Positions 29,188-48,399 of a DNA stretch of 48,835 nucleotides are shown in pieces (the first letter of the stretch is position 1; each line of letters starts with the position of its first letter). The DNA lies in contig NZ_KZ983964.1 in the NCBI RefSeq assembly GCF_003569765.1, positions 234-49,068 on the forward strand, written 5' to 3'. The notes under the pieces are model-generated. The model worked only from the letters and a program-made list of their open reading frames with translations. It had not been told where the DNA came from and searched no databases. A program made the translations under genes and the position numbers. The DNA comes from Caldimonas tepidiphila. Its GTDB lineage: Bacteria; Pseudomonadota; Gammaproteobacteria; Burkholderiales; Burkholderiaceae_C.

Positions 29188-29913
29188 TCAGCCCGGATCG
29201 GTGGAGCCGGGGGCGAGCTGGCGGTAGAGCTGGTTGGCGCGAGTCAGGTGCTCGCGCATCGCGTCCTCGGCCGCTTGCGGGTCGCGCGCGGCGATCGCGT
29301 CGACGATGCGCTCGTGCTCGGCGAGCGTGAGGCGCTCGGCGCCGGGCGCGCGCACCAGCTTCTGGTAGTACTCGCCGGCCCAGCCGAACAGCGCCTCGAC
29401 GATGGCCGGGTAGATCGGGTTGCCGCTGATCGCGGCGATCTCGCGGTGGAAGGCCATGTCGCGCGCGAGGAAGTGCTGCAGGTCGTCCATCGCGGCGCGG
29501 TGCTCTTCGAGTCGCCGGCGCAGCCGCGCGACGTCGGCCTCGCCGGCCTGCTGCGCCGCGAGCCGCGCCATGCCGGTCTCGAGGAAGATGCGCGCGTCCT
29601 TCAGGTGCGCGAGCGTTCCGGGCTGGATGCGCAGCAGGTGGCGCGCGCCGCCGGCGAGCTGCGCGATCAGATCCTGCGCGGTGGGCACCGCGACGCGGGC
29701 GCGCTCGCCCTGCGCGATCTCGACGATGTTCGAGCGCTCGAGCGACTGCAGCGCTTCGCGCACCGCCGGGCGGCCGACGCCGTAGTGCTCCATCAGCTCG
29801 CGCTCGGACGGCAGCGCGTCGCCGGGCGCGAACTCGCCGCCGCGGATGCGCGCGAGCAGCTGCTCGCACAGCTGCTCGGAGAGCTTGCGTTTGTGCAGCG
29901 GTTCGGCGGTCAT
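29188..29913 (-). CDS. GntR-family regulator, FCD type (first of two)
   Basis: A 241-residue FadR-like regulator from ATG 29913. The winged helix is at residues about 12-75 (SEQLCEQLLARIRGGEFAPGD, LPSERELMEHYGVGRPAVREAL, in parts), followed by an all-helical FCD ligand domain with the usual metal/ligand residues (DMAFHREIAAISGNP, EHERIVDAIAARDPQAAEDAMREHL). FCD regulators of this kind usually respond to organic or sugar acids. It lies at the downstream end of the acid-sugar island, 106 bases after the otnI-like gene, and may control the threonate/erythronate part. The start has no strong ribosome-binding site and an earlier in-frame ATG (30093) lies inside otnI, so I prefer 29913. Confidence 0.87.
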   Translation of the reverse strand: MTAEPLHKRKLSEQLCEQLLARIRGGEFAPGDALPSERELMEHYGVGRPAVREALQSLERSNIVEIAQGERARVAVPTAQDLIAQLAGGARHLLRIQPGTLAHLKDARIFLETGMARLAAQQAGEADVARLRRRLEEHRAAMDDLQHFLARDMAFHREIAAISGNPIYPAIVEALFGWAGEYYQKLVRAPGAERLTLAEHERIVDAIAARDPQAAEDAMREHLTRANQLYRQLAPGSTDPG

Positions 29914-30019
29914 CTCGGAGGCGTCGGGCGGGCAGGGGCGGTTCGCACGATCGGCATTGTCCTTCAGCCGCGCGCCGGCCCCCGCTACGGCAGCGGCCGC
30001 AGCGCTGCGGGCAGGGCCT

Positions 30020-30805
30020 TCAGCGGAGATGCGGCCGCAGCCAGCCCAGCCCCTCGGAGGTGCCGGCGCGCGGCCGGTACTCGCAGCCGACATGGCCCTC
30101 GTAGCCCAGCGCGTCGATCAGCGCGAAGAGGTAGGGGTAGTTCAGCTCGCCGGTGTCGGGCTCGTGGCGCTCCGGCACGCCGGCGATCTGCAGGTGCGCG
30201 ACGCGGCCCGTGGGCAGCCAGCGGCGCAGCTTGGTGGCGAGGTCGCCCTCGACGATCTGGCAGTGGTAGAGGTCCATCTGCACCTTCAGGTTCGCCGCCC
30301 CGAGCTCCTCGACGATCGCATGCGCCTCGTCCTGGCGGTTCAGGAAGTAGCCGGGGATGTCGCGGGTGTTGATCGGCTCGATCAGCACCTCCACGCCGGC
30401 GGGCGCCGCCTGCGCGGCGGCCCATGCGAGGTTGTCCAGATAGGTGGCGCGCAGCGCGGCGCGCGCCGCGCCGGCGGGCGCGAGCCCGGCCATCACGTGC
30501 AGCCGCGGGCAGCCGAGCGCATGCGCGTAGTCGAGCGCGCGCGTAATGCCGGCGCGGAACTCGGCTGTGCGGCCTGGCAGGCAGGCCAGCCCGCGCTCGC
30601 CGGCGTCCCAGTCGCCCGGCGGCGCGTTGAACAGCACCTGGCTCAGGCCGTGCTCGCGCAGCCGCGCGGCGAGCGCCTCGGCGGGGTGGGCGTAGGGGAA
30701 CAGGTACTCGACGGCACGGAAGCCGTCGCGCGCGGCGGCGGCGAAGCGGTCGAGGAAGTCGTGCTCCCCGTACATCAGGCTCAGGTTGGCGGCGAAGCGG
30801 GGCAT
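30020..30805 (-). CDS. otnI: 2-oxo-tetronate isomerase (OtnI; hydroxypyruvate isomerase family)
   Basis: A 261-residue TIM-barrel isomerase of the Hyi/OtnI family (PF01261): [21 protein letters not shown] at the start (in part), then [21 protein letters not shown], the metal Glu in [49 protein letters not shown] and the C-terminal Glu in GCEYRP. Sequence alone cannot separate hydroxypyruvate isomerase from OtnI. The direct neighbours LtnD, OtnK and OtnC make OtnI more likely; it converts 2-oxo-tetronate to 3-oxo-tetronate for phosphorylation by OtnK. It lies 28 bases after the OtnC gene, in the same operon. Confidence 0.87.
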
Positions 30806-30833
30806 GTCGGTCTCCGGGTCCTTGTCGTGGGGC

Positions 30834-31520
30834 TCACCAGGCGGCGCCGAAGTGCTCGCGCAGCTCGGCGATCTGTTCGGGCGTGAGCGGCGCGGGCTTC
30901 GGGGACGGCGCCAGCAGCCACAGCCGCGCGGTCTCCTCCAGCTCCTCGAGCGTCGCCATCGCCGAGGCGGGGTCGCGGTGCCAGACGTTGGGGCCGAGCC
31001 GCTCGAGCATCACCGCGCGGATCGGCGTGCCGCGCGCGCGCATCGCCTCGATGCGCTCGGCCACCCGCTCGCCGACCGCCGGGTCGCCGGGGCGGTGGTA
31101 GGGGATGAGCGGCACGTGGCCGACCTTCATCACGAAGTAGGGCGTGAGCGGCGGCAGCAGCTCCTCGGCGCTCCACGCGCCGGCGAGCGTCAGCGCGACG
31201 AGGTGCGTGCTGTGGGTGTGGATCACGCAGCGCGCCTCGGGGTCGGCGGCGTAGATGCGGCGGTGCAGCGCCAGCGTCTTCGACGCGCGCTCGCCACCGA
31301 GCTGGCGGCCGTCGCGGTCCACCCGCGCGAGCGCCGCCGGGTCGAGCCGCCCGAGGCAGGCGTCGGTGGGCGTGATCAGGAAGCCGCCGTCCTCCAGGCG
31401 CACGCTGATGTTGCCGGCGCTCGCGTGCACGTAGCCGCGCGCGTAGAGCGAGGCGCCGACGCGGCAGACCTCGTCGCGCAGCGCCGCCTCCTGCAGCGTG
31501 CCGGGGGGCAGGGCGCTCAT
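30834..31520 (-). CDS. otnC: 3-oxo-tetronate 4-phosphate decarboxylase (OtnC; class II aldolase family)
   Basis: A 228-residue class II aldolase/adducin protein. The zinc ligands include His101 and His103 in [13 protein letters not shown] and a later His in [11 protein letters not shown]. The N-terminal phosphate loop is [11 protein letters not shown], and [15 protein letters not shown] carries the conserved Ser-Lys and catalytic acid region. In the known pathway it converts 3-oxo-tetronate 4-phosphate to dihydroxyacetone phosphate and CO2. The ATG overlaps the stop of the kinase gene (ATGA), so the two are coupled. Related family members are fuculose- and ribulose-phosphate aldolases; the context decides for OtnC. 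Confidence 0.88.
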
Positions 31521-32836
31521 CGCGCCGCCTCCTCGAGCAGCCGCGCGAAGGCCTTGTCGAAGAAGTCGGTCGTGCCGAAGTTGCCGGACTTGAGCGCGAG
31601 GTGCAGCGTGTCCTGCGGGCACAGCGGCGAGCGCACCGCGGTCCACGGCACGCCGGGATCGATCTGCGGGCCGATCGCCATCTGCGCGATGCCGAGCGCC
31701 TGCACCACCGCGCCGGAGGTCTCGCCGCCGGCGACGACGAGCTGGCGCACGCCGCGCGCGATCAGGCCGTGCGCGAGCGCCGCCATCGCCTGCTCGACCA
31801 GCGCGCCGGCGCGCTCGACGCCGAGCTCGGCCTGCACCGCGCGCACCGCGTCGGGCTCGGCGGTGGCGTGGATCAGCAGCGGCCCGAGCTCGTCCTGGCG
31901 CGCGAGCTGGCGCTGCGCCCAGGCCAGCGCCTCGTCGAGGCCCTGCGCGCCGCTCGCGAGCGCGAGCGGGTCGAGCGCGAAGCAGGGCCGGCCGGCGGCG
32001 CGGAAGTGGCGCACCTGCGCGTTGGTCGCCGCCGAGCAACTGCCGGACAGCACCGCCTGCAGCCCGACAGGCTGCGGCAGCCGGTCGGCCTTCCCGCTCG
32101 GGCGCAGGCTGCCGTCGTCGCGCCAGTTCTGCGGCAGCCCGATCGCGACGCCGGAGCCGGCGGTCACCAGCGGCAGCCCGGCCAGCGCCGGGCCGAGCCG
32201 CAGCAGGTCCTCGTTGGAGATCGCGTCGACGATGGCGATGCCGACGCCCTCGGCGCGCAGCGCCGCGAAGCGCGCACGGATCGCGTCGGGGCCGCGCGCC
32301 ACCACGTCGTAGGGCACGAGGCCGACCTTGCGGCGCGTCTGGCGCTGCAGCACGCGCACCAGGTTGGGGTCGGTCATCGGCGTGAGCGGGTGGTGCTGCA
32401 TGCCGCTCTCGCTGAGCAGCGCGTCGCCGGCGAACAGGTGGCCGCGGAAGACGGTGCGGCCGTTCTCCGGGAGGGCCGGGCAGGCGATCGTGAAGCCGTC
32501 GCCGTCCGGGTGCAGCGCGTCGAGCAGCGCGTCGGCGACCGGGCCGATGTTGCCGCGCTCGGTCGAGTCGAAGGTCGAGCAGTACTTGAAGTAGACCTGG
32601 CGCACGCCCTGCGCCTGCAGCCAGCGCAGCGCCCCGAGCGACTGCGCCACCGCCTCCTGCGGCGGCAGCGTGCGCGACTTCAGCGCCACCACCACCGCGT
32701 CGGCAGCGATGTCGAGCGCCTGCCCGGGCACGCCGATGGTCTGCACCGCGCGCATGCCGGCGCGCACCAGGTTGTTGGCGAGGTCGGTGGCGCCGGTGAA
32801 GTCGTCGGCGATGCAGCCGAGCAGCGGCCGGCTCAC
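31517..32836 (-). CDS. otnK: 3-oxo-tetronate kinase (OtnK; DUF1537 four-carbon acid sugar kinase)
   Basis: A 439-residue DUF1537 kinase with both family domains. The N-terminal sugar-binding domain begins LLGCIADDFTGATDLANNLV and includes KYCSTFDSTERGNIGPVADAL and CPALPENGRTVFRGHLF. The C-terminal nucleotide-binding domain has VVAGGETSGAVVQALGI (about 370-386) and LALKSGNFGTTDFF. It phosphorylates 3-oxo-tetronate with ATP to the 4-phosphate. The start is GTG at 32836, overlapping the LtnD stop (GTGA), and the end overlaps OtnC. A second, more divergent DUF1537 kinase lies at 41515-42927. Confidence 0.92.
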   Translation of the reverse strand: MSRPLLGCIADDFTGATDLANNLVRAGMRAVQTIGVPGQALDIAADAVVVALKSRTLPPQEAVAQSLGALRWLQAQGVRQVYFKYCSTFDSTERGNIGPVADALLDALHPDGDGFTIACPALPENGRTVFRGHLFAGDALLSESGMQHHPLTPMTDPNLVRVLQRQTRRKVGLVPYDVVARGPDAIRARFAALRAEGVGIAIVDAISNEDLLRLGPALAGLPLVTAGSGVAIGLPQNWRDDGSLRPSGKADRLPQPVGLQAVLSGSCSAATNAQVRHFRAAGRPCFALDPLALASGAQGLDEALAWAQRQLARQDELGPLLIHATAEPDAVRAVQAELGVERAGALVEQAMAALAHGLIARGVRQLVVAGGETSGAVVQALGIAQMAIGPQIDPGVPWTAVRSPLCPQDTLHLALKSGNFGTTDFFDKAFARLLEEAAR

Positions 32837-33735
32837 CGCCCGCTCCCCGCGGCGGGCAGCCCGATGCCGGGGAAGATCTTGATCACCGCGGCGTCGTCCT
32901 CGCGGCCGTGGCCGGCGCTCGAGGCCTGCATGAACATCTGGTGCGCGGTGGCCGACAGCGGCAGCGGGAACTTGCTCGCGCGCGCGGTGTCGAGCACCAG
33001 CCCGAGGTCCTTGACGAAGATGTCCACCGCCGACAGCGGCGTGTAGTCGCCGGCGAGCACGTGCGGGATGCGGTTCTCGAACATCCAGCTGTTGCCGGCG
33101 CTGTTCGTGATCACCTCGTAGAGCGCGTGCGGATCGACCCCCTCGCGCAGCCCGAGTGCCATCGCCTCGGCGGCGGCGGCGATGTGCACGCCGGCGAGGA
33201 GCTGGTTGACGATCTTGACCTTGCTGCCGGCGCCGGCGGCGTCGCCGAGCCGGTAGACCTTGGCGGCCATCGCGTCGAGCACGGCGCCCGCCTTCGCGTA
33301 GGCCTCGGGCCGGCCCGAGGTCATCATCGTCAGCTGCCCGGCGGCGGCCTTCGCGGCGCCGCCCGAGATCGGCGCGTCGAGGTAGAGCACGCCCTGCGCG
33401 GCGAGGCGCTGCTCCAGCGCGATCGACCAGTTCGGGTCGACCGTCGAGCACATCACGAACACGCTGCCGGGGCGCAGCGCCGCGCCGGCGCCCTGCTCGC
33501 CCCACAGCACCGCCTCGGTCTGCGCGGCGTTGACCACCACGCTGACCACCACGTCGCAGTGCGCCGCGACCTCGGCCGGGCTCGCGCAGGCCACGCCGCC
33601 CTCGGCGGCGAAGGCCTGCGCCGCGTCGGCGCGCACGTCGCACACGTGCACATGGTGGCCGGCGCGGCGCAGCGAGCGCGCCATGCCCAGGCCCATGGCG
33701 CCGAGGCCGATCAGTCCGATGTTGCCAGTCGTCAT
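32833..33735 (-). CDS. ltnD: L-threonate dehydrogenase (LtnD; beta-hydroxyacid dehydrogenase family)
   Basis: A 300-residue NAD-dependent beta-hydroxyacid dehydrogenase. The Rossmann start is NIGLIGLGAMGLGMARSL, the substrate loop DAPISGGAAKAAAGQLT, and the catalytic lysine lies in GAGSKVKIVNQLLAG. The late block NSAGNSWMFENRIPHVL with DYTPLSAVDIFVKDLGLV is typical of the LtnD-type group beside OtnK. In the known pathway it oxidises L-threonate to 2-oxo-tetronate. It is translationally coupled to OtnK by a GTGA overlap and follows the TRAP permease by 25 bases. Confidence 0.88.
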   Translation of the reverse strand: MTTGNIGLIGLGAMGLGMARSLRRAGHHVHVCDVRADAAQAFAAEGGVACASPAEVAAHCDVVVSVVVNAAQTEAVLWGEQGAGAALRPGSVFVMCSTVDPNWSIALEQRLAAQGVLYLDAPISGGAAKAAAGQLTMMTSGRPEAYAKAGAVLDAMAAKVYRLGDAAGAGSKVKIVNQLLAGVHIAAAAEAMALGLREGVDPHALYEVITNSAGNSWMFENRIPHVLAGDYTPLSAVDIFVKDLGLVLDTARASKFPLPLSATAHQMFMQASSAGHGREDDAAVIKIFPGIGLPAAGSGR

Positions 33736-33760
33736 CTTGCTTGTCCGGAAGGGGTGGGGG

Positions 33761-35083
33761 TCACTGCGGGCCGATGGCCGGGCCGATCGACGGCGCGACG
33801 GCCGGCGCCGCGTAGACCAGATCGCGCAGCGCGAGGCTGATCCAGGGCAGGTAGGTGATCAGCATCAGGCAGCCGATGATCACCAGCACGAAGGGCACCA
33901 GGTAGCGGATGATCTGGTCGAGCGAGATCCGGGCCACCGTGCAGGCGGCGAACAGGTTGACGCCAAAGGGCGGGGTGATCATGCCCAGCGCCAGGTTCAC
34001 GACCATGATGATGCCGAAGTGCACCGGGTCGACCCCGAAGTGGCGCGCCACCGGCACCAGGATCGGCGCGAGCACGATGATCGCGGCCGAGGTCTCGATG
34101 AACATGCCGATCACGAACAGCGCAACGTTGACGCCGAGCAGGAACCACAGCGGCGACTTGAGGATCTCGGTGAGCCACGCGCCGATTGCCTCGGGGATGC
34201 CCGCGCGCGTGATCAGGAAGGCGAACAGGCCCGCGTTGGCGATGATGAACATGATCACCGCGCTCGAGATCACCGACTTGCGCAGCACCTGCAGCAGGTC
34301 CTTCGGCGCCAGCTCGCGGTGGATGAACAGGCCCACCGTCAGCGCGTAGAACACCGCCACCACCGAGGCCTCGGTCGGCGTGAAGATGCCGCCGTAGATG
34401 CCGCCGAGGATGATCACCGGCATCAGCAGCGCCCAGGCGGCGTTGCCGGTGGCGCGCGTCACCGACAGGCGGCCCTCGCCGTCCTGCTTGCCCCAGCCCT
34501 TGAGGCGGCAGTACAGGTGCACGAACAGCATCAGCGCGCCGCCGATCAGCAGGCCCGGGCCGAAGCCGGCGATGAACAGCTCGCCGATCGAGACCTCGGC
34601 CGCGACGCCGAACAGGATCAGCGGGATCGACGGCGGGATGATCACGCCGAGCTCGGCCGAGGTCGCCTGCAGCGCCGCGGCGTAGTTGCGCGGGTAGCCG
34701 TGGTGGATCAGCGCCGGGATCAGCACCGAGCCGATCGCGAAGGTGGTGGCCACCGAGGAGCCCGACACCGCGGCGAAGATCATGCAGGTCAGCACGCAGG
34801 TCATCGGCAGGCCGCCCTGCACGCCGCCGACCAGCGACTTGGCGAAGTCGACCAGGCGGCGCGAGATGCCGCCGGTCTCCATCAGGTTGCCGGCGAGGAT
34901 GAAGAAGGGGATCGCCGCGAGCGGGAACTTGTCGAGCGCCGAGAACATTTCCTTCGGCGCCAGCACCAGCTTGTCGGCGTCGAAGAGCGCCAGGCCCAGC
35001 ATGGCCGAGCCGCCGATCGAGACCGCGATCGAGACGCTGAACGCGAAGCCCAGCATCATGGTGAGCAAGAGAACGGACGACAT
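33761..35083 (-). CDS. dctM: TRAP transporter large permease (DctM)
   Basis: A 440-residue DctM-type membrane protein with about twelve membrane segments, from SSVLLLTMMLGFAFSVSIAV to IGCLMLITYLPWISLAL. Family blocks are FFILAGNLMETGGISRRLVDF, MTCVLTCMIFAAVSGSSVAT, PPSIPLILFGVAAE and TPTEASVVAVFYAL (in part). It is the sodium-driven membrane subunit of the importer. A GAAGGA site precedes the ATG at 35083. It is located between DctQ and LtnD in an operon, so the substrate is most likely a sugar acid used by the enzymes around it. Confidence 0.93.
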   Translation of the reverse strand: MSSVLLLTMMLGFAFSVSIAVSIGGSAMLGLALFDADKLVLAPKEMFSALDKFPLAAIPFFILAGNLMETGGISRRLVDFAKSLVGGVQGGLPMTCVLTCMIFAAVSGSSVATTFAIGSVLIPALIHHGYPRNYAAALQATSAELGVIIPPSIPLILFGVAAEVSIGELFIAGFGPGLLIGGALMLFVHLYCRLKGWGKQDGEGRLSVTRATGNAAWALLMPVIILGGIYGGIFTPTEASVVAVFYALTVGLFIHRELAPKDLLQVLRKSVISSAVIMFIIANAGLFAFLITRAGIPEAIGAWLTEILKSPLWFLLGVNVALFVIGMFIETSAAIIVLAPILVPVARHFGVDPVHFGIIMVVNLALGMITPPFGVNLFAACTVARISLDQIIRYLVPFVLVIIGCLMLITYLPWISLALRDLVYAAPAVAPSIGPAIGPQ

Positions 35084-35114
35084 GTCGGGTCCTTCGTGAA
35101 GCCTGGCGCGCGTC

Positions 35115-35699
35115 TTACTGCGCGTTGTCCAGTTCCTCGTTGACGGGGTCGAGGTGGTGCGCGAGCACCGCGACGATGCACAGCGCGGCGCCGACCGGCA
35201 GCGCGGCATAGGCCCAGGCCATCGACAGCTCCAGCGATGCGAAGGTCTGGAAGCGCACGCGCCGGGTCAGGTCGATGCCGAACCACAGCAGCACGCCGAG
35301 GTAGGCCAGCGCGGTGCCGGTGATGAAGTGGCGCACGACGCGCCGCCACATCCCGCGCGAGGTGCGCAGCATCAGGTCCACCGACACCAGCGCACCGCGG
35401 CGGAAGGCCACCACGGTGCCGAGCACCACGCACCACACCAGCAGCCGGCGCATCAGCTCCTCGGTCCAGCTGCTCGGCTGCGACAGCACGAAGCGTGCGA
35501 TCACCTGCCACAGCCCGAGCGCGGAGATCACCGCAAGCAGCGCGCAGGCGACGTGCAGCGCGAGCGCGGTGAGGCGGCGGTCGACGGCGAGCACGAGCGC
35601 CGTCAGCGGGCCGGGCTCGCCGCGGGCGGTCCCCGGCACGGCGGCGGCGGCCGCCGCCACCGTGCCGGGGACCGCGCCTTCGATGTGCGGCGCGGCCAT
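35115..35699 (-). CDS. dctQ: TRAP transporter small permease (DctQ)
   Basis: A 194-residue protein with four membrane segments and the DctQ block WQVIARFVLSQPSSWTEEL (about 67-85), followed by RRLLVWCVVLGTVVAFRRGAL. The N-terminal about 35 residues are Ala/Pro/Gly-rich and hydrophilic, so an internal start is possible. It begins two bases after the DctP stop and ends 31 bases before DctM. Confidence 0.9.
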   Translation of the reverse strand: MAAPHIEGAVPGTVAAAAAAVPGTARGEPGPLTALVLAVDRRLTALALHVACALLAVISALGLWQVIARFVLSQPSSWTEELMRRLLVWCVVLGTVVAFRRGALVSVDLMLRTSRGMWRRVVRHFITGTALAYLGVLLWFGIDLTRRVRFQTFASLELSMAWAYAALPVGAALCIVAVLAHHLDPVNEELDNAQ

Positions 35700-35701
35700 G
35701 G

Positions 35702-36679
35702 TCAGCGCACCGCCTGGATCGCCGCGATGCGGTCGGCGCCGAACTCCTTCGCGAACTCGGCATAGGCCGGCCCGACCGCCTTGCGGAAGCTGTCGCCGTC
35801 GACCTTCTCGATCACCTGCATGCCGTCCTTCTTCAGCTGCGCGAGGCCGCTCGCCTCGTCGTCGTTGACGCGCTTGCGCTGCACCTCGGCGCTCTTCTTC
35901 GCCGCGGCCTGGAAGACCTGCTTGTCGGCGTCGGACAGCTTGCCCCAGGCGGACTGCGACATCAGCAGCAGCGCCGGCGAGTAGACGTGGCCGGTCAGCG
36001 ACAGGTGCTTCTGCACCTGCGAGAACTTGGCCGACAGGATCACGGGGATCGGGTTCTCCTGGCCGTCCACGGTGCCCTGCTGCAGCGCGGTGAAGACCTC
36101 GGTCATCGACATCGGCGTCGGCAGGATGCCGAAGGTCTTGTAGGCCGCCATGTGGACCTTGTTCTCCATCGTGCGCAGCTTCAGGCCGCTGGCGTCGCTC
36201 GCGCTCTGGATCGCGCGCTTGTTGTTGGTCATGTGGCGGAAGCCGTTCTCGCTCCACGCCAGCGCCACCATGCCCTTCGACGGGAACTTGGTCAGCAGCT
36301 CCTGGCCGATCTTGCCGTCGAGCACCTTGCGCGCATGCTCGTAGTCGCGGAACAGGAAGGGGATGTCGAGCACCTTGATCTCGGGCACGAAGTTGCCGAC
36401 CGGGCCGGTGGAGGTCAGCACGACGTCCTGCGTGCCGAGCTGCACCGCCTCGACCATCTCGCGCTCGCCGCCGAGCGCGCCCGACGGGAACTGCTGGCAC
36501 TTGTAGCGCCCCTGCGTGCCGCGCTCGACCTCGTCGCAGAATGCGGTCGCCCCCGCGCCGTAGTGCGACTCCTTGGGCACCGTGTAGCCGATCTTCAGCA
36601 CGGTCTGCGCCGAGGCGGCGCTGCCGAGTCCGAACACCGCGACGGCGGCCAGGGCGATGCGGGTGAAACGACGGTTCAT
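35702..36679 (-). CDS. dctP: TRAP transporter periplasmic binding protein (DctP family)
   Basis: A 325-residue receptor with a cleavable signal (RFTRIALAAVAVFGLGSAASA, about 4-24, then QTVLKIGYT). Typical DctP features are GQQFPSGALGGEREM-like CQQFPSGALGGEREMVEAVQ, FLFRDYEHARKVLDGKIGQE, the carboxylate-binding Arg in KLRTMENKVH, PTPMSMTEVFTALQQGTVDG and QENPIPVI. The invariant Arg suggests a carboxylate ligand. The subset beside acid-sugar enzymes often binds aldonates such as erythronate, threonate or xylonate; the ligand here is inferred only from context. A motif shared with other promoters of the island lies 70-90 bases upstream. Confidence 0.92.
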   Translation of the reverse strand: MNRRFTRIALAAVAVFGLGSAASAQTVLKIGYTVPKESHYGAGATAFCDEVERGTQGRYKCQQFPSGALGGEREMVEAVQLGTQDVVLTSTGPVGNFVPEIKVLDIPFLFRDYEHARKVLDGKIGQELLTKFPSKGMVALAWSENGFRHMTNNKRAIQSASDASGLKLRTMENKVHMAAYKTFGILPTPMSMTEVFTALQQGTVDGQENPIPVILSAKFSQVQKHLSLTGHVYSPALLLMSQSAWGKLSDADKQVFQAAAKKSAEVQRKRVNDDEASGLAQLKKDGMQVIEKVDGDSFRKAVGPAYAEFAKEFGADRIAAIQAVR

Positions 36680-36750
36680 GGGCTTGTCTCCTTGGGTGGG
36701 GGAAGGAAGAGGCGGTCGTGCCGCCTTCGAGGGAGCCGGGACGTCAGGAA

Positions 36751-36770
36751 ATCGTATGGTCATCATATGA
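36751..36770 (-). promoter_or_regulatory. Putative GntR operator/promoter of the dctPQM-ltnD-otnKCI operon
   Basis: GGTCATCATATGA (36758-36770) is identical over 13 bases to the site before the GntR gene at 41462. The preceding ATCGTATG (36751-36758) recurs at 48453. On the minus strand TATGAT (36767-36762) could be a -10 with ATGACG (36790-36785) as -35, 17 bases apart. It sits in the 137-base gap between the dehydratase stop and dctP, which supports a promoter inside the island. Confidence 0.65.
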
Positions 36771-36816
36771 GTCACCTTGACGCCCGTCATTCGGGTAGAC
36801 CCGCGCCGGCGGGCGC

Positions 36817-38643: not shown

Positions 38644-38677
38644 GGGGGGATCCTTGGTGGTTGGCGGGGGCAGGGGC

Positions 38678-39658: not shown

Positions 39659-39704
39659 GGCTGGGACACTCCGCAGGATGGGATCGGGGGAAGGGAGGCG
39701 GCGC

Positions 39705-40595: not shown

Positions 40596-40643
40596 GTTCG
40601 TCTCCTCCTGTGCCTCGTCGGGCTGCGCCTCTTGCCGGGCGGC

Positions 40644-41459: not shown

Positions 41460-41461
41460 AA

Positions 41462-41474
41462 GGTCATCATATGA
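41462..41474 (-). promoter_or_regulatory. Putative GntR autoregulatory operator
   Basis: GGTCATCATATGA directly precedes the gntR start codon at 41459; it includes the palindrome TCATATGA (41467-41474). The same 13 bases occur at 36758. Being so close to the start codon, binding would block its own expression. Confidence 0.65.
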
Positions 41475-41514
41475 ATTCGATCCATCCCCGCCCTCGGGAC
41501 TAACCCCAGCGCCG

Positions 41515-42927
41515 CTAGAGCGGGCGCGGCGGCGCGGCGGCCGGTGCCGGGTCGACCCGACCGGCGCGCACCTCGCCGAAGAAGGCGGCGCCGCCCATCT
41601 GCCCGCCCTTGAGCACGATCTCGAGCCCGTCGCGCGCCGGGTCCTCGGACCAGGCGCGGCACAGCGGCGCGCCCGGCGCAAGGCCGGCGAGCACGCTCAG
41701 CGCGGCGATGTCGAGCCGGCTCGCCACCTCGCCCGAGCTGTCGCCGCCTGCGACCACGACGCGGCGCAGCGGCACGCGGTCGAGCAGCCGCCGCATCAGC
41801 TCGGCAAGCCCGCGGCCGACCTGCTGCATCGCGTCCTCGCGCGACAGCCCGGCCTCGCGCGCGGTGGCGTCGAAGCCCGTCACCGCAGGATCGTCTGGGC
41901 CGAGCGCCGAGTACACCAGTGCGCTGCGGCCCTGCGCCAGCGCGGCGGCGGCGGCGTCGAGCGCGCGCCCGATCTCGGCCTCGCGGCCCGCCGCGTCGAA
42001 CAGCGGCGCGAGCCGCAGCCGCTCGGCGTGGAAGCCGTTGTCCTGCGCCCAGCGGATCTGCGCCGCGGTGACCGGCGAGCAGCTGCCGCTGACGGCGGCG
42101 ATCGCCTCCACCGGCGCGGCGCACGGCAGAGAGGGCTCGGCCGGCAGCAGGCCGATGCGGCGCCAGTGCGCCGCGAGCGCGTACTGCAGCCCCGAGGACG
42201 AGGCGCTGAAGAGGCCGGAGCCGCGCAGCTCCCACACGAGGCGCCCCGCCTCGGCGAGCGTCTCCTCGTCGAGCACGTCGATCAGCGTCACCGGCACGTC
42301 GTCGCCGGCGAGCGCCTGCACGCGCGCGTCGGCGCCGGCGCGCAGCTGCACCAGGTCGATCAGCTCGGTGCGGCGCGCGGTCTGCGCGCGCAGGTGCAGG
42401 CGCAGGTCCGCCTCGCGCATCGGCGTGGCCGGGTGGCGCGACATGGTCGGGTGGCGGTCGAGCCGGTGGCAGACGCCGTCGACCGCGGCGAACAGGTTGC
42501 CGAAGGCCTGGTAGCGCTTCAGGCGCGGCACGCCGACCAGCATCGGCGACCAGCGCCCCGGCATCAGCGGCACGCCCAGCTCGATCGCCTGCCCGATCGA
42601 GCCGATCTCGGGCGAGGAGTCGAAGGTCGAGCAGACCTTGTACTGCAGCAGCGGCGCGCCGAGCCGCGCCAGGCTCGCCAGCGCCGCCGGCAGCTCGCGG
42701 CGCATCCACTCGGGGCTGCGGCCGCGCGACTGGCCGGCGAGGCCGACGCAGCGCACGCCGGGGAAGCGCTGCAGCCAGTGCGGCTGCGGCGGGCGCAGGA
42801 ACAGCACCGTCGGCACGCCGGCCGCGGTGAAGGCCTCCATCACGTCGGTGGAGCCGGTGAAGTCGTCGCCGTAGTAGCTCAGCAGCAGCCCGTCGGGCCA
42901 GCGCGCGCCTGCGGCCGCGGCCGCCAT
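41515..42927 (-). CDS. oiaK: 3-oxo-isoapionate kinase-like DUF1537 kinase (OiaK-like)
   Basis: A 470-residue DUF1537 kinase, the second in the island. The N-terminal block is LLLSYYGDDFTGSTDVMEAF, then QYKVCSTFDSSPEIGSIGQA and YQAFGNLFAAVDG. The C-terminal nucleotide domain has VVVAGGDSSGEVASRLDI and IVLKGGQMGGAAFFGEV. It differs from OtnK in substrate-loop sequence (YGDDFTGS versus ADDFTGA). It is coupled to the RuBisCO-like gene by a TGATG overlap; in D-apionate pathways a DUF1537 kinase (OiaK) phosphorylates 3-oxo-isoapionate just before such a protein acts. The specific name rests on this context. Confidence 0.82.
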   Translation of the reverse strand: MAAAAAGARWPDGLLLSYYGDDFTGSTDVMEAFTAAGVPTVLFLRPPQPHWLQRFPGVRCVGLAGQSRGRSPEWMRRELPAALASLARLGAPLLQYKVCSTFDSSPEIGSIGQAIELGVPLMPGRWSPMLVGVPRLKRYQAFGNLFAAVDGVCHRLDRHPTMSRHPATPMREADLRLHLRAQTARRTELIDLVQLRAGADARVQALAGDDVPVTLIDVLDEETLAEAGRLVWELRGSGLFSASSSGLQYALAAHWRRIGLLPAEPSLPCAAPVEAIAAVSGSCSPVTAAQIRWAQDNGFHAERLRLAPLFDAAGREAEIGRALDAAAAALAQGRSALVYSALGPDDPAVTGFDATAREAGLSREDAMQQVGRGLAELMRRLLDRVPLRRVVVAGGDSSGEVASRLDIAALSVLAGLAPGAPLCRAWSEDPARDGLEIVLKGGQMGGAAFFGEVRAGRVDPAPAAAPPRPL

Positions 42928-44168
42928 CACCACACCTCCAGCGCCGCCTGCAGCGCCGGGTGCGAGCGCGCGTGCTCGGCGATCGGCACGCCCTGCATCG
43001 CCGCGCGCCAGGCCTCGCGCATCGCGGCGACGCCGGCGGCGATGCCGCCCGGGTGGCCGAAGATGCCGCCGCCGGCAGCGTGGATCAGGTCGGCGCGGCC
43101 GAGCGCGGCCCAGGTGCCGGCGGCCTGCAGTCCGGTCTGGCCGGAGCTGAACACCGGCATCGCCGCCATCGGCGCCTCGTCCCACAGCGGCCGCAGCACG
43201 GAACGCGCCGCCGCGATCACGCTGTCGTCGGGCTCGCTGAACTTGTTGCGCAGGCCGTTGACGTGCAGGTGGTCGGCGCCGGCGAGGCGCCAGATCTGCT
43301 GCCACGGCGCGTAGTCCCAGCCGAGCGCCGGGCTGCGGCTCAGGTAGCCCCAGCCGTTGCGGTGCGCGTGGATCGGCAGCGCCGCGTGGCGGCGCAGCTC
43401 GAGCAGGCCGACGAGGCCGATCGAGTTCAGGCTCGCCATCACGCAGGTGCCGCCGAGCGACAGCACCAGGTCGTGGCGGCGCTTCATCTGGTCGAGCTCG
43501 CCGGTCAGGTTGAAGGCGACCATCACTTTGCGGCCGTGGCGCTGCGCGGCGTCGTCGACGACGCGCATGACCGCGCGCACGCGCTCCTCGAAGGGGCAGT
43601 GCGGGCCGTCGGCCTGCAGCTCGTCGTCCTTGATGAAGTCGATGCCGCCGTCGATCAGCTGGCGCACCTGCGCGGCGGTCTCCTGCGCGTCGAGCCCGAC
43701 GCTCGGCTTGATGATGGTGCCGATCAGCGGGCCCTCGTGCACGCCGGCGAGCGCGCGCGTGCCTTCGATGCCGAAGGCCGGGCCGGGGTAGGCGGCGGCG
43801 AAGGCGGGCGGCAGCTTCAGCTCGAGCAGCCGCAGGCCCGAGACCTGGCGCAGCTCGAACAGGTTGCCGGCGACGGTGGCCATCAGGTTCGGCAGCGAGG
43901 GGCCGAGGTTCTCGATCGGCCACGACAGCGTCAGGTGGCAGCGCGTGTAGAAGGGCGCGCTCATGCCCCCGGGCAGGCTGGGCTGCGCGACGCGCTCGAG
44001 CAGCTCGAGCGACTCGACGCGCGCGCCGGCGCGCGCCTTGAGCTCCGGCGTCTCGCCGGCGAGCGCGACGAAGGTGCCGCTGGACTGCTCGCCGGCGATG
44101 GCCTCGGCGGCGCGCCGCGGGTCGTCGCCGGTCTCGAGCCAGTAGCGGGCGTAGATGCGTTCCGACAT
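42927..44168 (-). CDS. RuBisCO-like protein, 3-oxo-isoapionate-4-phosphate decarboxylase or transcarboxylase/hydrolase type
   Basis: A 413-residue form IV RuBisCO-like protein. Lys180 in GGIDFIKDDE corresponds to the carbamylated lysine, with Asp182 and Glu183 as metal ligands. GTIIKPSVGL keeps the first active-site lysine (Lys154) but has Ser for the second. IHAHRNGWGY, HLHVNGLRNKF (His302, loop-6-like Lys309), VFSSGQTG and the phosphate loop GGGIFGHPGG are present. Carbon fixation is therefore unlikely. Beside an OiaK-like kinase and an ApnO-like enzyme it should act on 3-oxo-isoapionate 4-phosphate, either as decarboxylase (OiaX) or transcarboxylase/hydrolase (OiaT). No erythrulose-phosphate isomerase is seen nearby, which mildly favours the latter. 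Confidence 0.88.
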   Translation of the reverse strand: MSERIYARYWLETGDDPRRAAEAIAGEQSSGTFVALAGETPELKARAGARVESLELLERVAQPSLPGGMSAPFYTRCHLTLSWPIENLGPSLPNLMATVAGNLFELRQVSGLRLLELKLPPAFAAAYPGPAFGIEGTRALAGVHEGPLIGTIIKPSVGLDAQETAAQVRQLIDGGIDFIKDDELQADGPHCPFEERVRAVMRVVDDAAQRHGRKVMVAFNLTGELDQMKRRHDLVLSLGGTCVMASLNSIGLVGLLELRRHAALPIHAHRNGWGYLSRSPALGWDYAPWQQIWRLAGADHLHVNGLRNKFSEPDDSVIAAARSVLRPLWDEAPMAAMPVFSSGQTGLQAAGTWAALGRADLIHAAGGGIFGHPGGIAAGVAAMREAWRAAMQGVPIAEHARSHPALQAALEVW

Positions 44169-44178
44169 CGTCCGCTCC

Positions 44179-44940
44179 TCAGACGCAGCGCCCGCCGTCC
44201 ACCTCCAGCGCGACGCCGGTGATGAAGTCGGCCTCGTCGCTGGCCAGGAAGGCTGCGGCCTTGGCCATGTCCAGCGGGCGGCTCAGGCGCCCGAGCGGGA
44301 TGGTGGCGATGATCTTGGCGCGCGTGGCCTCGTTGTCCTCGCCGGGCAGGAAGTCGCCGATCAGGCCGGTCTCGCCCATCACCGGGTTGATCGCGACGAC
44401 GCGGATGCGGTCGGGCGCGAGCTCGGCGGCCATCGACTTCGTCAGCACGATCGCCGCGCCCTTGCTGCCGTTGTACCAGGTCAGCCCTGGGCGCGGGCGC
44501 ACGCCGGCGGTGGAGGCGATGTTGATGATCACGCCGCCGCCCTGGCGGCGCAGCACCGGCACGACGTGCAGCGCGCTCAGGTAGATGCTCTTGACGTTGG
44601 TGGCGTAGACGCGGTCGAAGGTGGCCTCGTCGACGTTGAGCATCGGCTGGTTCTTGTGCGTGGTGCCGGCGTTGTTGACCAGCACGTCGATGCGGCCGTA
44701 GCGCTCGAGCGTCGCCTGCGCCAGCGCGGCCCAGTCCTCGTTGCGCGTCACGTCGGCATGCAGCGCGAGCGCCTGGCCGCCGGCGGCGGTGATCCCGGCC
44801 GCGACGCGCTGCGCCGCGTCGCCGCGCAGGTCGGCCACCACCACCTTGGCGCCGAGCTCGGCGTAGTGCCTCGCGATGCCCTCGCCGAAGCCGCCGCCGG
44901 CGCCGGTCACGATCGCCACGCGGTCCTGAAGCTTGCCCAT
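44179..44940 (-). CDS. SDR-family oxidoreductase
   Basis: A 253-residue classical short-chain dehydrogenase. The coenzyme motif is VAIVTGAGGGFGEGIARHYA, followed by VLVNNAGTTHKNQP, the catalytic Ser in NIASTAGVRPRPG and the Tyr/Lys in WYNGSKGAAIVLTK. VVADLRGD after the second strand suggests NAD rather than NADP. It lies between the aldehyde dehydrogenase and the RuBisCO-like gene (10 bases from the latter). Its substrate is unknown; it could oxidise a sugar or an acid-sugar alcohol that enters the apionate branch. Confidence 0.88.
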   Translation of the reverse strand: MGKLQDRVAIVTGAGGGFGEGIARHYAELGAKVVVADLRGDAAQRVAAGITAAGGQALALHADVTRNEDWAALAQATLERYGRIDVLVNNAGTTHKNQPMLNVDEATFDRVYATNVKSIYLSALHVVPVLRRQGGGVIINIASTAGVRPRPGLTWYNGSKGAAIVLTKSMAAELAPDRIRVVAINPVMGETGLIGDFLPGEDNEATRAKIIATIPLGRLSRPLDMAKAAAFLASDEADFITGVALEVDGGRCV

Positions 44941-44988
44941 GGATGTCTCCTCGAAGTGCCTGGGGGCGCGGGCGCGCGCCCCGCGGGT

Positions 44989-46443
44989 TCAGCCATGCCG
45001 GATGGCGATGGTCTTGATGGTGGTGAAGCCGCGCAGGCCCTCGAAGGCCTTCTCGCGGCCGTGGCCCGAATGCTTCATGCCGCCGAAGGGCAGCTCGATG
45101 CCGCCGCCGGCGCCGTAGTTGTTGACGAAGACCTGGCCGGCCTCGATGCGGTGCGCCATGCGCAGCTGGCGCGCGCCGTCGCGCGTCCACACGCCGGCGG
45201 TCAGCCCGTAGGGCGTGCCGTTGGCGAGCGCCGCCGCCTCGTCCTCGCCGTCGAAGGCGAAGGCGGCGAGCACCGGGCCGAACACCTCCTGCTGCGCGAT
45301 GTCGTGCGCGGGCGGCACCTGCGCGAGCAGCAGCGGCGGGAAGTAGTGGCCGCCGCTCGCGGCCTCGTCCATCAGCCGCGCGCGCGCCGCGACCCGCACC
45401 CCGTCGGCGCAGGCGGCCTCGACCATCGCGCCGACGCGCTCGAGCTGGCGGCGGCTGATCAGCGGGCCGCAGTCCGGGTCGAGCCGGCCCGGGCCGCAGC
45501 GCAGCGCCTCGAAGCGCGCGGCGAGCCGCTCCATCACCTCCTCGTGGATCGCGCGCTCGATCAGCACGCGGCTGCCGGCGGCGCAGGTCTGGCCGGCGTT
45601 CTGCACGATCGCCTGCACCACCACCGGCAGCGCCGCGTCGAGGTCGGCGTCGGCGAACAGCAGCTGCGGCGACTTGCCGCCGAGCTCCAGCGTCACCGGC
45701 ACGTGGTTGACGGCGGCGGCCTGCGCCACCGCGGTGCCGGTCTGCGGCGAGCCGGTGAAGGAGATGTGGTCGATGCCCGGATGCGCCGCGAGCGCCGCGC
45801 CCGCCTCCGCGCCGAGCCCGCAGACGAGGTTCAGCGCGCCCGGAGGCAGCCCGGCTTCGAGCGCCAGCGCGGCGAGCCGCAGCGGCGTCAGGCAGGCGTC
45901 CTCGGCGGGCTTGACGACGCAGGCGTTGCCGGCCGCGAGCGCGGCGCCGACCGAGCGGCCGAAGATCTGCGCCGGGTAGTTCCACGGGATGATGTGGCCG
46001 GTCACGCCGTGCGGCACGCGCAGCGCCATCACGGTGCTGCCGGCGGCGTAGGGGATGGTCTCGCCGTGCAGCTTGTCGGCGGCGCCGGCGTAGTACTCGA
46101 AGTAGCGCGCGCAGGCGCCGATGTCGGCGCGCGCCTGGCTGATCGGCTTGCCGGTGTCGCGGCATTCCAGCGCGGCGAGCTCCTCGTGGTGCTGCGCGAC
46201 CAGCGCCGACCAGCGCATCAGCACGCGGCCGCGCTCGGTGGCGGTCGCGCGCCCCCAGGCGCCGCGGCAGGCGCGCCGCGCCGCGTCGACGGCGGCGTCG
46301 ACGTCGCGCGCGTCGCCGCGCGGCAGCGTCGCGAAGCGCTCGCCGGTGGACGGGTCGGCGACGTCGAGCGTGCGCCCCGACGCGGCCTCGCGCGGCTCGC
46401 CGTCGATCAGGTGGAGCCAGCGGGCGGTCTCGTTGCTCGGCAT
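44989..46443 (-). CDS. NAD-dependent aldehyde dehydrogenase
   Basis: A 484-residue ALDH. The oxyanion Asn is in HIIPWNYPAQIFG, the coenzyme loop is FTGSPQTGTAVA, the general base Glu in VTLELGGKSPQ and the catalytic Cys in QNAGQTCAAGSRVL. C-terminal EVFGPVLAAFAF and LPFGGMKHSGHGREK are typical. It resembles the betaine-/gamma-aminobutyraldehyde type broad group, so the substrate cannot be told. In this operon it may oxidise glycolaldehyde or a sugar aldehyde. It begins 17 bases after the ApnO-like stop. Confidence 0.9.
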   Translation of the reverse strand: MPSNETARWLHLIDGEPREAASGRTLDVADPSTGERFATLPRGDARDVDAAVDAARRACRGAWGRATATERGRVLMRWSALVAQHHEELAALECRDTGKPISQARADIGACARYFEYYAGAADKLHGETIPYAAGSTVMALRVPHGVTGHIIPWNYPAQIFGRSVGAALAAGNACVVKPAEDACLTPLRLAALALEAGLPPGALNLVCGLGAEAGAALAAHPGIDHISFTGSPQTGTAVAQAAAVNHVPVTLELGGKSPQLLFADADLDAALPVVVQAIVQNAGQTCAAGSRVLIERAIHEEVMERLAARFEALRCGPGRLDPDCGPLISRRQLERVGAMVEAACADGVRVAARARLMDEAASGGHYFPPLLLAQVPPAHDIAQQEVFGPVLAAFAFDGEDEAAALANGTPYGLTAGVWTRDGARQLRMAHRIEAGQVFVNNYGAGGGIELPFGGMKHSGHGREKAFEGLRGFTTIKTIAIRHG

Positions 46444-46460
46444 GGCGGGCGCTCCCCGGC

Positions 46461-47291
46461 TCAGGTGATGCGGCGGATGCTGTCGGCGATCTCGGCGCGG
46501 TCGAAGACCTGCTTCCAGTCCTCGCGCATCAGCCGCGGCTTGCCGAAGGCGATGGCCTTGTTGCAGGCGTCGGAGAACTGGCCCGGGATCTCCTTGAAGA
46601 TCACCGCGCCGAGGATGGTCATGTGGCCGAGCAGGAAGTCGCGCGCCGCGACCTCGGGCACGCCGCGCGCGACCACCTCGTCCATCGCCTCGCGCATCAC
46701 GTCGAGCAGCGTCGCGCAGACCGTCTCGGACAGCCCCGGCTCGAGCAGCGCCATCTGCTCGACGGTGAGGCGGTGCGAGCGCAGGATCGGCGCGTAGATC
46801 ACCTTCGCGATCTCCTCGCCGAGGTCGAAGGCCGACTCCGGCCCCTGCATCAGCGCGCTGACGATGGACTGGCGCGCATGCGCGCCGCCGAAGAAGTCGC
46901 GCCGCGCGGCCGGCTCGCTCTCGTCGTTGAAGATCGGCGGGTGGCAGGGGTGGGCGACGAAGTAGACCAGGTCGGGGCGGTCGGGCAGGTGGCCGGCGAA
47001 GGGCGCGGCGGCGTCGAGCGTCATCACCATCGTGCCGGGCTGCAGCATCGGGGAGATCTCGGCGGCGAGCCGCCCGATGAGCGTGTCGGGCACCGCGAGG
47101 ATCACCACCTCGGCGCCGTCGAGCGCGGCGGCGGTCGGCACGCACTCGACGCCGAGCTCGGCCTTCAGCCGCTCCTGCCCCGCGGGGCTCACCTCGACAT
47201 GCCTCACGCGGTAGGCCGAACCCTGCAGGTTGCGGCTCAGCCGCAGACCCATCTTTCCACCGGCGCCGAACAGCGCGATCGTCGTACTCAT
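46461..47291 (-). CDS. apnO: D-apionate oxidoisomerase-like protein (ApnO-like, 6-phosphogluconate-dehydrogenase C-terminal type)
   Basis: A 276-residue NAD-binding protein: coenzyme motif IALFGAGGKMGLRLSRNL, then EVVILAVPDTLIGRLAAEI, HPCHPPIFNDE and a helical C-terminal half (EEIAKVIYAPILRSHRLTVE, DFLLGHMTILGAVIFKEIPG) of the 6-phosphogluconate-dehydrogenase C-terminal type. As I recall, D-apionate oxidoisomerase (ApnO) belongs to this group; it oxidises D-apionate and moves a hydroxymethyl group to give 3-oxo-isoapionate. The neighbouring OiaK-like kinase and RuBisCO-like protein agree with this role. It is the first gene of its operon, behind a GGAG site and a 21-base palindrome. Confidence 0.8.
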   Translation of the reverse strand: MSTTIALFGAGGKMGLRLSRNLQGSAYRVRHVEVSPAGQERLKAELGVECVPTAAALDGAEVVILAVPDTLIGRLAAEISPMLQPGTMVMTLDAAAPFAGHLPDRPDLVYFVAHPCHPPIFNDESEPAARRDFFGGAHARQSIVSALMQGPESAFDLGEEIAKVIYAPILRSHRLTVEQMALLEPGLSETVCATLLDVMREAMDEVVARGVPEVAARDFLLGHMTILGAVIFKEIPGQFSDACNKAIAFGKPRLMREDWKQVFDRAEIADSIRRIT

Positions 47292-47353
47292 GAGGTGCTC
47301 CGAAGTAAGGGGGCGGCGCTGCGGCGGGAAGCAGCTCGGGGGCCGGCGCCTGG

Positions 47354-47374
47354 TCTAATCATATGATGATTAGA
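47354..47374. promoter_or_regulatory. Putative GntR operator upstream of the apnO-like operon
   Basis: Nine-base arms TCTAATCAT (47354-47362) and ATGATTAGA (47366-47374) are perfectly complementary around ATG. The preceding bases read GG, so the left end is GGTCTAAT, similar to GGTCAT at the other sites, and the reverse strand shares the core TCATCATATGA with 36760 and 41464. It lies 62 bases before the apnO-like start. The region is AT-rich. Confidence 0.75.
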
Positions 47375-47583
47375 CGAGATTCCTTGCTCATGGCTAACCC
47401 TGAGAACCTGCTTGCGAGGGGAGCGCCGCACGGTGCACGCCGGCTCGCCGCCTGTGGGAACGGGGCGCCTGCATTGGCAGAAGCCGGCGGGAAGAGGCCC
47501 GGGGCGGGTGCCGGGAGGAAGGTGCGGCCGTCCCCACGACACCGGCGCAGGCGAGCGCGGGCGGGCGCCTGCGGCGGGCCGGT
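47375..47583. other. Gene-free stretch between the apnO-like operator and the aldolase
   Basis: About 209 bases downstream of the aldolase gene and upstream of the apnO operator. It is GC-rich after 47410 with several G-runs on the plus strand. No motif-bearing frame, RNA or clear terminator is visible. Confidence 0.5.
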
Positions 47584-48399
47584 TCAGTAGGCGGCCGACG
47601 GAGCCGGCGCCCCAGGCGCGCCCTGCTCCCGGCAGTGCGCCGACAGCGAGCGTGCCGCGTTGGCCAGCAGCAGCACGTCCACGCCCACCGCGACGAAGGT
47701 CGCGCCGAGTTCCAGGTAGCGGCGTGCTGGCGCCGGGCCGGAGACCAGGATGCCGGCGGCCTTGCCGCTGGCGACGATGGTGGCGATGGCCGACTCGATC
47801 GCGTCCTGCACCTCCGGGTGTTCCGGGTGGCCCCGGTGGCCCATCGAGGCCGCGAGGTCTGCCGGGCCGATGAACACGCCGTCCACACCGTCCACCGCGC
47901 AGATCGCGGGCAGGTTGCGCATCGCCGTCACGGTCTCGGCCTGCACCAGCAGGCAGACCTCGTCGTCGGCGACGTCGAGGTAGTCGCCGCGGGCGTTCCA
48001 GCGCGAGGCGCGGGCGATCGCGCTGCCCACCCCGCGGATGCCGCGCGGCGGGTAGCGCACCGCCGAGACCATCTGCCGTGCCTGCTCCGGGGTGTCGACC
48101 ATCGGCACCAGCAGCGTCTGCGCGCCCAGGTCGAGGACCTGCTTGATCAGCGGCACCTCGCCCGCCACCACCCGCACCACCGGGTGCGCCGGATAGGGGG
48201 CGAGCGCCTGCAGCTGCGGCAGCACGCTGCGCACGTCGTTCGGCGCATGCTCGCCGTCGATCAGCAGCCAGTCGAAGCCGGCGGTGGCGCAGACCTCGGC
48301 CGAATAGGCATCGGCCAGCGACAGCCACAGGCCGATCCGGGCGCGGCGCTCGATCAGGGCTTGCTTGAAGGGATTGGGGCAGGGGGTCGAAGGGGTCAT
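47584..48399 (-). CDS. HpcH/HpaI-family class II (metal-dependent) aldolase
   Basis: A 271-residue TIM-barrel aldolase of the HpaI/GarL/RhmA group. His51 ([11 protein letters not shown]), Arg76 (HPVVRVV), Glu155 ([15 protein letters not shown]), Asp181 ([12 protein letters not shown]) and [18 protein letters not shown] are the usual catalytic, substrate and metal positions. The family cleaves 2-keto-3-deoxy sugar acids or 4-hydroxy-2-oxo acids to pyruvate and an aldehyde. Here it could split the product of the IlvD-type dehydratase, with the aldehyde dehydrogenase acting on the aldehyde. The tail beyond about 255 is Ala/Pro-rich. A putative GntR site lies 45-63 bases upstream. Confidence 0.9.

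Follow-up and report, generated by a model that had tools for sequence, protein, structure and literature searches.

The D-erythronate/L-threonate operon, with LtnD/DenD, OtnI, OtnK, and OtnC (Zhang 2016, as described in PMC12540250 and PMC10580937), and the D-apiose/D-apionate pathways that use a RuBisCO-like protein (RLP; PMC6302742) both have counterparts in one island of the Caldimonas tepidiphila genome. The island occupies positions 29188 to 48399, minus strand, of the window, i.e., the whole 48,835-nt stretch of DNA that was analyzed (positions 234 to 49068 of the 49068-nt contig C39 in a draft genome of 5.47 Mb and 178 contigs). It contains the same five tetronate enzyme families as the known operon and adds apionate genes, a tripartite ATP-independent periplasmic (TRAP) importer, an aldehyde dehydrogenase (ALDH) next to a short-chain dehydrogenase/reductase (SDR), and an IlvD-type dehydratase; its regulators are of the GntR/FCD and NanR types, in contrast to the DeoR-type VdtR of the Brucella operon. 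With the D-apiose/D-apionate pathways it shares an ApnO-like protein, OiaK, and an RLP from a clade that includes Xanthobacter proteins; unlike those pathways, it has a TRAP importer, an RLP other than OiaX, and no close homologue of the dehydrogenase or lactonase of the Paraburkholderia sprentiae type. Probably, the island represents a single co-regulated locus for taking up and degrading 2,4-dihydroxybutanoate-type sugar acids, in which known pathways and enzymes come in a new, recurrent, and apparently co-regulated arrangement. Among the papers listed in literature searches, none describes a locus that joins tetronate and apionate genes, which is no claim that such a locus is absent from print. 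The arrangement brings together two sugar-acid pathways that are already known, and it may serve as a compact case of catabolic regulon merging, with operators and gene order that vary among relatives.

Genes were called by composition-based gene finding combined with Pfam and NCBIfam scans, and scores are given as bits/curated cut-off. In the order of transcription, the features of the island are as follows.

47584..48399, minus strand: HpaI/HpcH-type aldolase (TIGR02311, 397.5/368.8), followed by a 292-nt gap to ApnO
47353..47375, minus strand: operator-like palindrome GTCTAATCAT-CAT-ATGATTAGAC upstream of ApnO, containing TCATATGAT
46461..47291, minus strand: ApnO-like protein, predicted D-apionate oxidoisomerase, 276 aa (Pfam PGDH_C, 246/25)
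44989..46443, minus strand: ALDH, 484 aa (Aldedh)
44179..44940, minus strand: SDR, 253 aa, NCBIfam subfamily "glucose 1-dehydrogenase" (PRK07231, 347/215)
42927..44168, minus strand: RLP, predicted 3-oxo-isoapionate-4-phosphate transcarboxylase/hydrolase type (RuBisCO_large, 212/30.1)
41515..42927, minus strand: OiaK, predicted 3-oxo-isoapionate kinase, DUF1537 family (NF042436, 827.5/700)
41462..41474, minus strand: operator-like word TCATATGATGACC upstream of GntR
40644..41459, minus strand: GntR/FCD regulator, orthologue of the otn-operon regulator (Pfam GntR and FCD)
39705..40595, minus strand: GarR-like protein, 2-hydroxy-3-oxopropionate reductase family (TIGR01505, 283.8, under the cut-off of 340.75)
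38678..39658, minus strand: DenD, putative D-erythronate dehydrogenase (NF043036, 503.6/325)
36817..38643, minus strand: IlvD/EDD sugar-acid dehydratase (PRK13017, 997.7/684)
36758..36770, minus strand: operator-like word TCATATGATGACC upstream of the TRAP genes
35702..36679, minus strand: DctP, TRAP solute-binding protein (TIGR00787, 265/175)
35115..35699, minus strand: DctQ (PF04290, 90.6/28.3)
33761..35083, minus strand: DctM (TIGR00786, 453/268)
32833..33735, minus strand: LtnD, putative L-threonate dehydrogenase (NF043037, 476.1/350)
31517..32836, minus strand: OtnK, putative 3-oxo-tetronate kinase (NF043035, 642.5/350)
30834..31520, minus strand: OtnC (NF043034, 252/250; start inferred)
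30020..30805, minus strand: OtnI, putative 2-oxo-tetronate isomerase (NF043033, 409.6/325)
29188..29913, minus strand: NanR-type GntR regulator (PRK03837, 305/260)

From ApnO to OtnI, adjacent genes have overlaps of at most 4 nt or gaps of at most 55 nt, apart from the 137 nt ahead of DctP; the gap ahead of the NanR-type regulator is 106 nt. Upstream of the HpaI start, the contig continues for only 436 nt, so genes beyond its end are out of view. A preliminary description of this DNA, made from the letters alone, had named most of these genes, and the Pfam and NCBIfam scores place all of them on one strand at nearly the positions it assigned. Its list lacked the GntR/FCD regulator (40644-41459), the GarR-like gene (39705-40595), and the NanR-type GntR (29188-29913). 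On the whole, its interpretation of the island proves largely right and in need of corrections.

Its central proposal, the joining of an apionate and a threonate/erythronate module, is confirmed by neighborhood comparison: the joining recurs in relatives, with varying gene order. The survey covered 200 genomes of the same family, including the window genome (G000). An RLP with at least 69% identity to that of the window is found in 15 of them, and 14 of the 15 encode OtnK above its cut-off. In seven of these 14 genomes (G000, G182, G077, G062, G174, G003, and G189), OtnK lies 8 to 14 kb from the RLP (13.5 kb in G189, Limnohabitans parvus II-B4); as G182 and G077 belong to one genus and G062 and G174 to another, the seven represent five genera. 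In the other seven, the two genes are 353 kb apart in one genome and on different contigs in six, so linkage is possible there. RLPs of other types (48 to 59% identity) comprise 13 genes, seven of them in OtnK-bearing genomes, and none of the seven lies within 20 kb of OtnK (six on different contigs). G182, G077, G062, and G174 have the order GntR-LtnD-OtnK-OtnC-OtnI-DenD-DctPQM-ApnO-DctP-ALDH-SDR-RLP-OiaK-NanR, with the modules in reverse order relative to the window. In these four composite loci, ApnO and a second DctP directly precede ALDH, and RLP-OiaK-NanR directly follow SDR; in G077, DctQ and DctM are more distantly related (33% and 44%). Their GntR proteins are 65 to 66% identical to the GntR/FCD regulator of the window, and orthologues of its NanR-type regulator (73 to 75%) come after OiaK. 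Among 80 named RLP loci with flanks of at most 10 kb, some shorter, so that all counts there are lower bounds, OtnK is present in at least three and LtnD in at least six. Both are found near the RLP in L131 and L134 (Rhodobacterales, Roseicyclus), and OtnK is found near it in L115 (Oceanicola).

Control of both modules by one regulon, as proposed in the preliminary description, gains support from an operator-like word. The word TCATATGAT recurs upstream of ApnO, between OiaK and GntR, and upstream of DctP, always in intergenic DNA. It has four matches at these three places in the window, one of them palindromic, compared to 0.01 expected, and is found nowhere else in the 5.47-Mb draft genome. 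The 13-base TCATATGATGACC with up to one mismatch occurs in the genome twice, both times in the island. The core TATGATGA is preceded by CA at all three sites and, since TCATATGAT is confined to the island, its presence at both modules suggests a single regulon. In relatives, counted without L076 and L094 (duplicates), L142 and L175 (both from the window genome), L178 to L181, and identical stretches, the core (background, 0.007 per 330 bases) is preceded by GG in all 17 cases upstream of ApnO and by TG or CG in all seven cases upstream of GntR (six) and LtnD (one). It is also found upstream of RLP (6 of 100 stretches; five with GG, one with GA), NanR (3 of 71), and OiaK (1 of 91), the latter two always with GG; some of these stretches overlap those of ApnO. 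The core is absent upstream of OtnK (23 stretches), OtnI (20), ALDH (24), SDR (18), DctM (14), and DctP (31) in relatives. A tentative reading, which we would hold to be somewhat less probable than its opposite, is that the GG-TATGATGA of the relatives (apionate/NanR) and their TG-TATGATGA (tetronate/GntR) changed together here to a private CA-TATGATGA, palindromic at ApnO, so that one switch would govern both breakdown routes and their common TRAP importer for the 2,4-dihydroxybutanoate scaffold. The CA sites, seen in one genome only, may also have arisen by chance or by parallel change. An alternative candidate, a FadR-type TNGTNNNACNA operator, has one intergenic match versus 0.6 expected and was dropped. 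Scans for promoters and terminators return one promoter-like site versus 0.4 expected and four terminator-like sites versus 3.8 expected; the promoter-like site, at 36790-36762, overlaps the word upstream of DctP.

Among NCBIfam families, the window RLP scores best with the OiaX decarboxylase equivalog (NF042437), at 449.3 bits, below the cut-off of 700. The RLPs of P. sprentiae (444), Microvirga ossetica (453), and Xanthobacter oligotrophicus (432) likewise fall under it, and of 398 genomes sampled from the phylum, only six contain an RLP above it. In a midpoint-rooted tree of 127 rows, these six OiaX-scoring RLPs form their own clade, apart from the window RLP. The latter belongs to a 59-row clade (SH-aLRT, 100) with two Xanthobacter RLPs (L092 and L098) and Paraburkholderia loci, several of which also contain ApnO, OiaK, a ribose-type ABC importer, and a Gfo/Idh/MocA dehydrogenase. 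It is 73% identical to the RLP of X. oligotrophicus 29k, which is not the characterized Xanthobacter strain, and 43 to 44% identical to two OiaX rows. In spinach RuBisCO numbering, the lysine and metal-site columns K175, K201, D203, E204, and K334 are kept in all 127 rows and the K177 column in none; columns E60, N123, and H327 hold the RuBisCO residues E, N, and H in 121 of 121 non-OiaX rows and D, G, and Q in all six OiaX rows. The AlphaFold model (pLDDT, 88.8) best matches 3nwr from Burkholderia fungorum, the nearest solved RLP (399 bits; TM, 0.92 to 0.94; 47% identity), whose entry title names no function. Judged by its sequence, the window RLP is not the OiaX decarboxylase. RLPs of the Xanthobacter type reportedly yield 3-phosphoglycerate and glycolate; because the window RLP groups with these and with apiose-locus RLPs, it is predicted to cleave its substrate to the same products by transcarboxylation/hydrolysis. 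More generally, for the set of RLPs that NCBIfam does not name as OiaX, the active-site residues agree better with C-C hydrolysis than with decarboxylation. The genome also encodes a RuBisCO large chain (G000:C4:8073-8996; 452 bits), about 30% identical to the window RLP. A Limnohabitans-like RLP locus, L079, comes from a contig labeled as an Akkermansia muciniphila metagenome-assembled genome, probably through a binning or labeling error.

OiaK scores above the cut-off of its equivalog (827.5/700), which predicts kinase activity on 3-oxo-isoapionate. ApnO matches no NCBIfam equivalog; its predicted activity on D-apionate follows from the PGDH_C family and its place beside RLP and OiaK. It is 75 to 84% identical to ApnO-like genes near RLP and OiaK in close relatives, and a gene of this kind (at least 35% identity) is found within the available flanks of 59 of the 80 RLP loci. 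With respect to the apionate groups in which the preliminary description had placed these proteins, OiaK lies inside by NF042436, whereas the RLP is outside the OiaX group and inside the Xanthobacter/apiose-locus (Gfo/Idh/MocA) clade. The absence of an apiose dehydrogenase and an apionolactonase, noted there for the island, extends to close homologues of the P. sprentiae Gfo/Idh/MocA and SMP-30 proteins in the whole draft genome; searches limited to these two queries return only distant matches (the best by E value, 27% over a partial alignment, and 26%). The same queries find no close homologue in G182, G077, G062, G174, and G003.

All five tetronate enzymes (LtnD, DenD, OtnI, OtnK, and OtnC) score above their curated NCBIfam equivalog cut-offs. 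The nearest solved structure to DctP is 4pdd (540 bits, about 75% identity), one of a group of TRAP binding proteins that includes 4pdd and 4pdh from Polaromonas, 4p9k and 4pak from Verminephrobacter, and 4nq8 from Bordetella. 4pdd and its kin were reportedly crystallized with D-erythronate or pantoate. D-Erythronate, pantoate, and D-apionate have the HOOC-CHOH-C-CH2OH core in common. Because the structure model of DctP is poor (pLDDT, 43.5), its Foldseek list was used for entry names and sequence identity only. The DctP tree assigns the window protein to neither the tetronate nor the apionate type, and the two DctPs of the composite loci are sister copies in it (87/93). TRAP binding proteins have been tied to carboxylates (PMC4646407), which makes entry as acids likely and fits the preliminary view that the locus starts from the acids. 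Loci L037 to L040 contain sister DctPs, one by the tetronate genes and one by ApnO, and a single DctQM pair; they provide a natural pair for the study of importer specificity.

The ALDH-SDR pair is likely tied to the importer and the tetronate branch. Orthologues of the window ALDH (67 to 80%) are found in the tetronate-TRAP operons of G129, G075, and G059, and SDR orthologues are also present in such operons. The stretches read from G075, G059, G114, and G129 have a tetronate run that extends to DctPQM-ALDH-SDR, and they contain no apionate gene; G129 belongs to the window's own genus, and no RLP or LtnD was found there. In G133, ALDH-SDR comes with tetronate genes and no matching TRAP, and in Azospirillum thermophilum DctPQM-ALDH-SDR stands alone. 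Its presence in loci lacking apionate genes indicates that the pair has no specific tie to the apionate route. L061 and L070 have ALDH-SDR with apionate genes and no tetronate gene in the available flanks. Adjacent ALDH-SDR pairs with no clear function are found in plasmid records of A. thermophilum and, by match coordinates, Shinella sp. HZN7.

IlvD scores below the cut-off of the amino-acid-biosynthesis equivalog TIGR00110 (348.9/618); its nearest solved structures are 7m3k ("Galactonate dehydratase," 959 bits) and 5oyn (802 bits), a xylonate dehydratase. Neither the 80 RLP loci nor the composites G182, G077, G062, G174, and G003 contain an IlvD homologue of at least 45% identity, and a GarR-like gene (at least 45%) is found in one of the 80; IlvD and the GarR-like gene are explained by neither route. 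In L187 (G005:C31:198000-217900), OtnK and OtnC share a 20-kb stretch with a 70% IlvD homologue, which hints at a dehydratase branch in some tetronate loci. An HpaI-like gene (at least 40%) is found in 1 of 80 other RLP loci, with short flanks; this and the 292-nt gap make HpaI membership of the regulon doubtful, and it may be a mere neighbor. Of the members proposed in the preliminary description, the ApnO-like, OiaK, RLP, tetronate, and TRAP genes stand, HpcH/HpaI is in doubt, ALDH and SDR also occur in other contexts, and IlvD is accounted for by neither route.

If the island works as one locus, the TRAP importer would bring in D-erythronate, L-threonate, and probably D-apionate. In the tetronate branch, DenD or LtnD would produce 2-oxo-tetronate, to be isomerized by OtnI, phosphorylated by OtnK, and decarboxylated by OtnC to dihydroxyacetone phosphate. 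In the apionate branch, ApnO would form 3-oxo-isoapionate, OiaK would phosphorylate it, and the RLP, given its clade and active-site residues, would release 3-phosphoglycerate and glycolate with no OiaX-like decarboxylation. The GntR/FCD regulator, the NanR-type regulator, or both might bind the CATATGATGA-core operator before the ApnO, GntR, and TRAP genes, so that both branches would respond together. ALDH-SDR might conceivably feed in acids made from aldehydes or polyols. The plant-derived origin of the acids, put forward in the preliminary description, is something that we infer, as is every enzyme activity named here. One importer for several four- and five-carbon acids would, if true, help explain bacterial use of the products formed when ascorbate and plant cell walls are degraded.

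Several observations weigh against this picture. With up to three mismatches, the window shows no enrichment of the 13-base TCATATGATGACC (five matches versus 2.6 expected); upstream of HpaI, there is only a three-mismatch word (48449-48461), and the core TATGATGA is absent before NanR in the window genome. In relatives, the exact core is found in only 17 of 75 ApnO, 6 of 14 GntR, 1 of 22 LtnD, and 0 of 31 DctP upstream stretches. The recognition helices of both regulators display no clear change relative to their orthologues, leaving the operator change with no visible counterpart. OtnC exceeds its cut-off by only 2 bits, and a second OtnK (610 bits; G000:C64:23774-25018, L175), with OtnC at a contig end, means that the OtnK of the island is not the sole tetronate kinase copy. 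ALDH-SDR pairs (59 to 64%) with neither module are found in five loci (G047, G085, G183, G078, and G187). For glycolate disposal, the best GlcD-like (494/567.9 bits) and glyoxylate carboligase (Gcl)-like (350/711) proteins in the genome are below their cut-offs. Finally, the RLP tree is without the Ochrobactrum anthropi RLP and the characterized enzymes of Xanthobacter autotrophicus and A. radiobacter K84. Two catabolic operons that are chance neighbors with no shared control, the apionate one regulated by NanR and the tetronate one by GntR, would account for the occurrence of each module without the other in relatives, the separate regulators, the differing operators where the core is found there (GG versus TG/CG), and the helix-turn-helix helices without clear change. 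This explanation is unlikely given the recurrent joining in 7 of 14 genomes with differing gene orders, the apionate genes that flank ALDH-SDR on both sides in four genomes, and the presence at both modules of one and the same word that is confined to the island.

Within the proposed co-regulated locus, the roles of individual genes also have alternatives. A dehydratase-aldolase route, in which IlvD, HpaI, and ALDH would convert a sugar acid via a 2-keto-3-deoxy acid to pyruvate and an aldehyde and then to an acid, is rather unlikely: it agrees with the proximity of IlvD to 7m3k and 5oyn, the HpaI score, the presence of an ALDH, and the IlvD homologue beside OtnK and OtnC in G005, and is opposed by the offset and rarity of HpaI near RLPs and by the lack of IlvD in RLP loci and composites. 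That the RLP is an ordinary OiaX-type decarboxylase, with L-erythrulose 1-phosphate, the OiaX product, and CO2 as its products, would suit its superfamily, its OiaK and ApnO neighbors, and its top-scoring NCBIfam family; its score of 449 against 700 bits, the 43 to 44% identity to two OiaX rows, the three active-site columns that differ with no exception, and the separate clade make this very improbable. Hardly more credible is a role of the RLP branch in the use of another branched acid, e.g., D-hamamelonate, instead of D-apionate. A RuBisCO-like oxygenase belongs to the D-hamamelose pathway of O. anthropi (Kim 2018, as cited in PMC8914248 and PMC10176493), the last step of that pathway is linked with 3-phosphoglycerate and glycolate (PMC8914248), the RLP is not OiaX, and RLP-kinase loci with no nearby ApnO exist (L035 and L036). 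On the other side are the OiaK equivalog score, the ApnO-like neighbor, and the RLP clade common to loci with Gfo/Idh/MocA, ApnO, and OiaK, in a tree whose rows do not include the O. anthropi RLP.

Directly downstream of the island, the same strand encodes a methyl-accepting chemotaxis receptor (26828-28780) and an EAL/GGDEF protein (24829-26649), which might serve as sensors.

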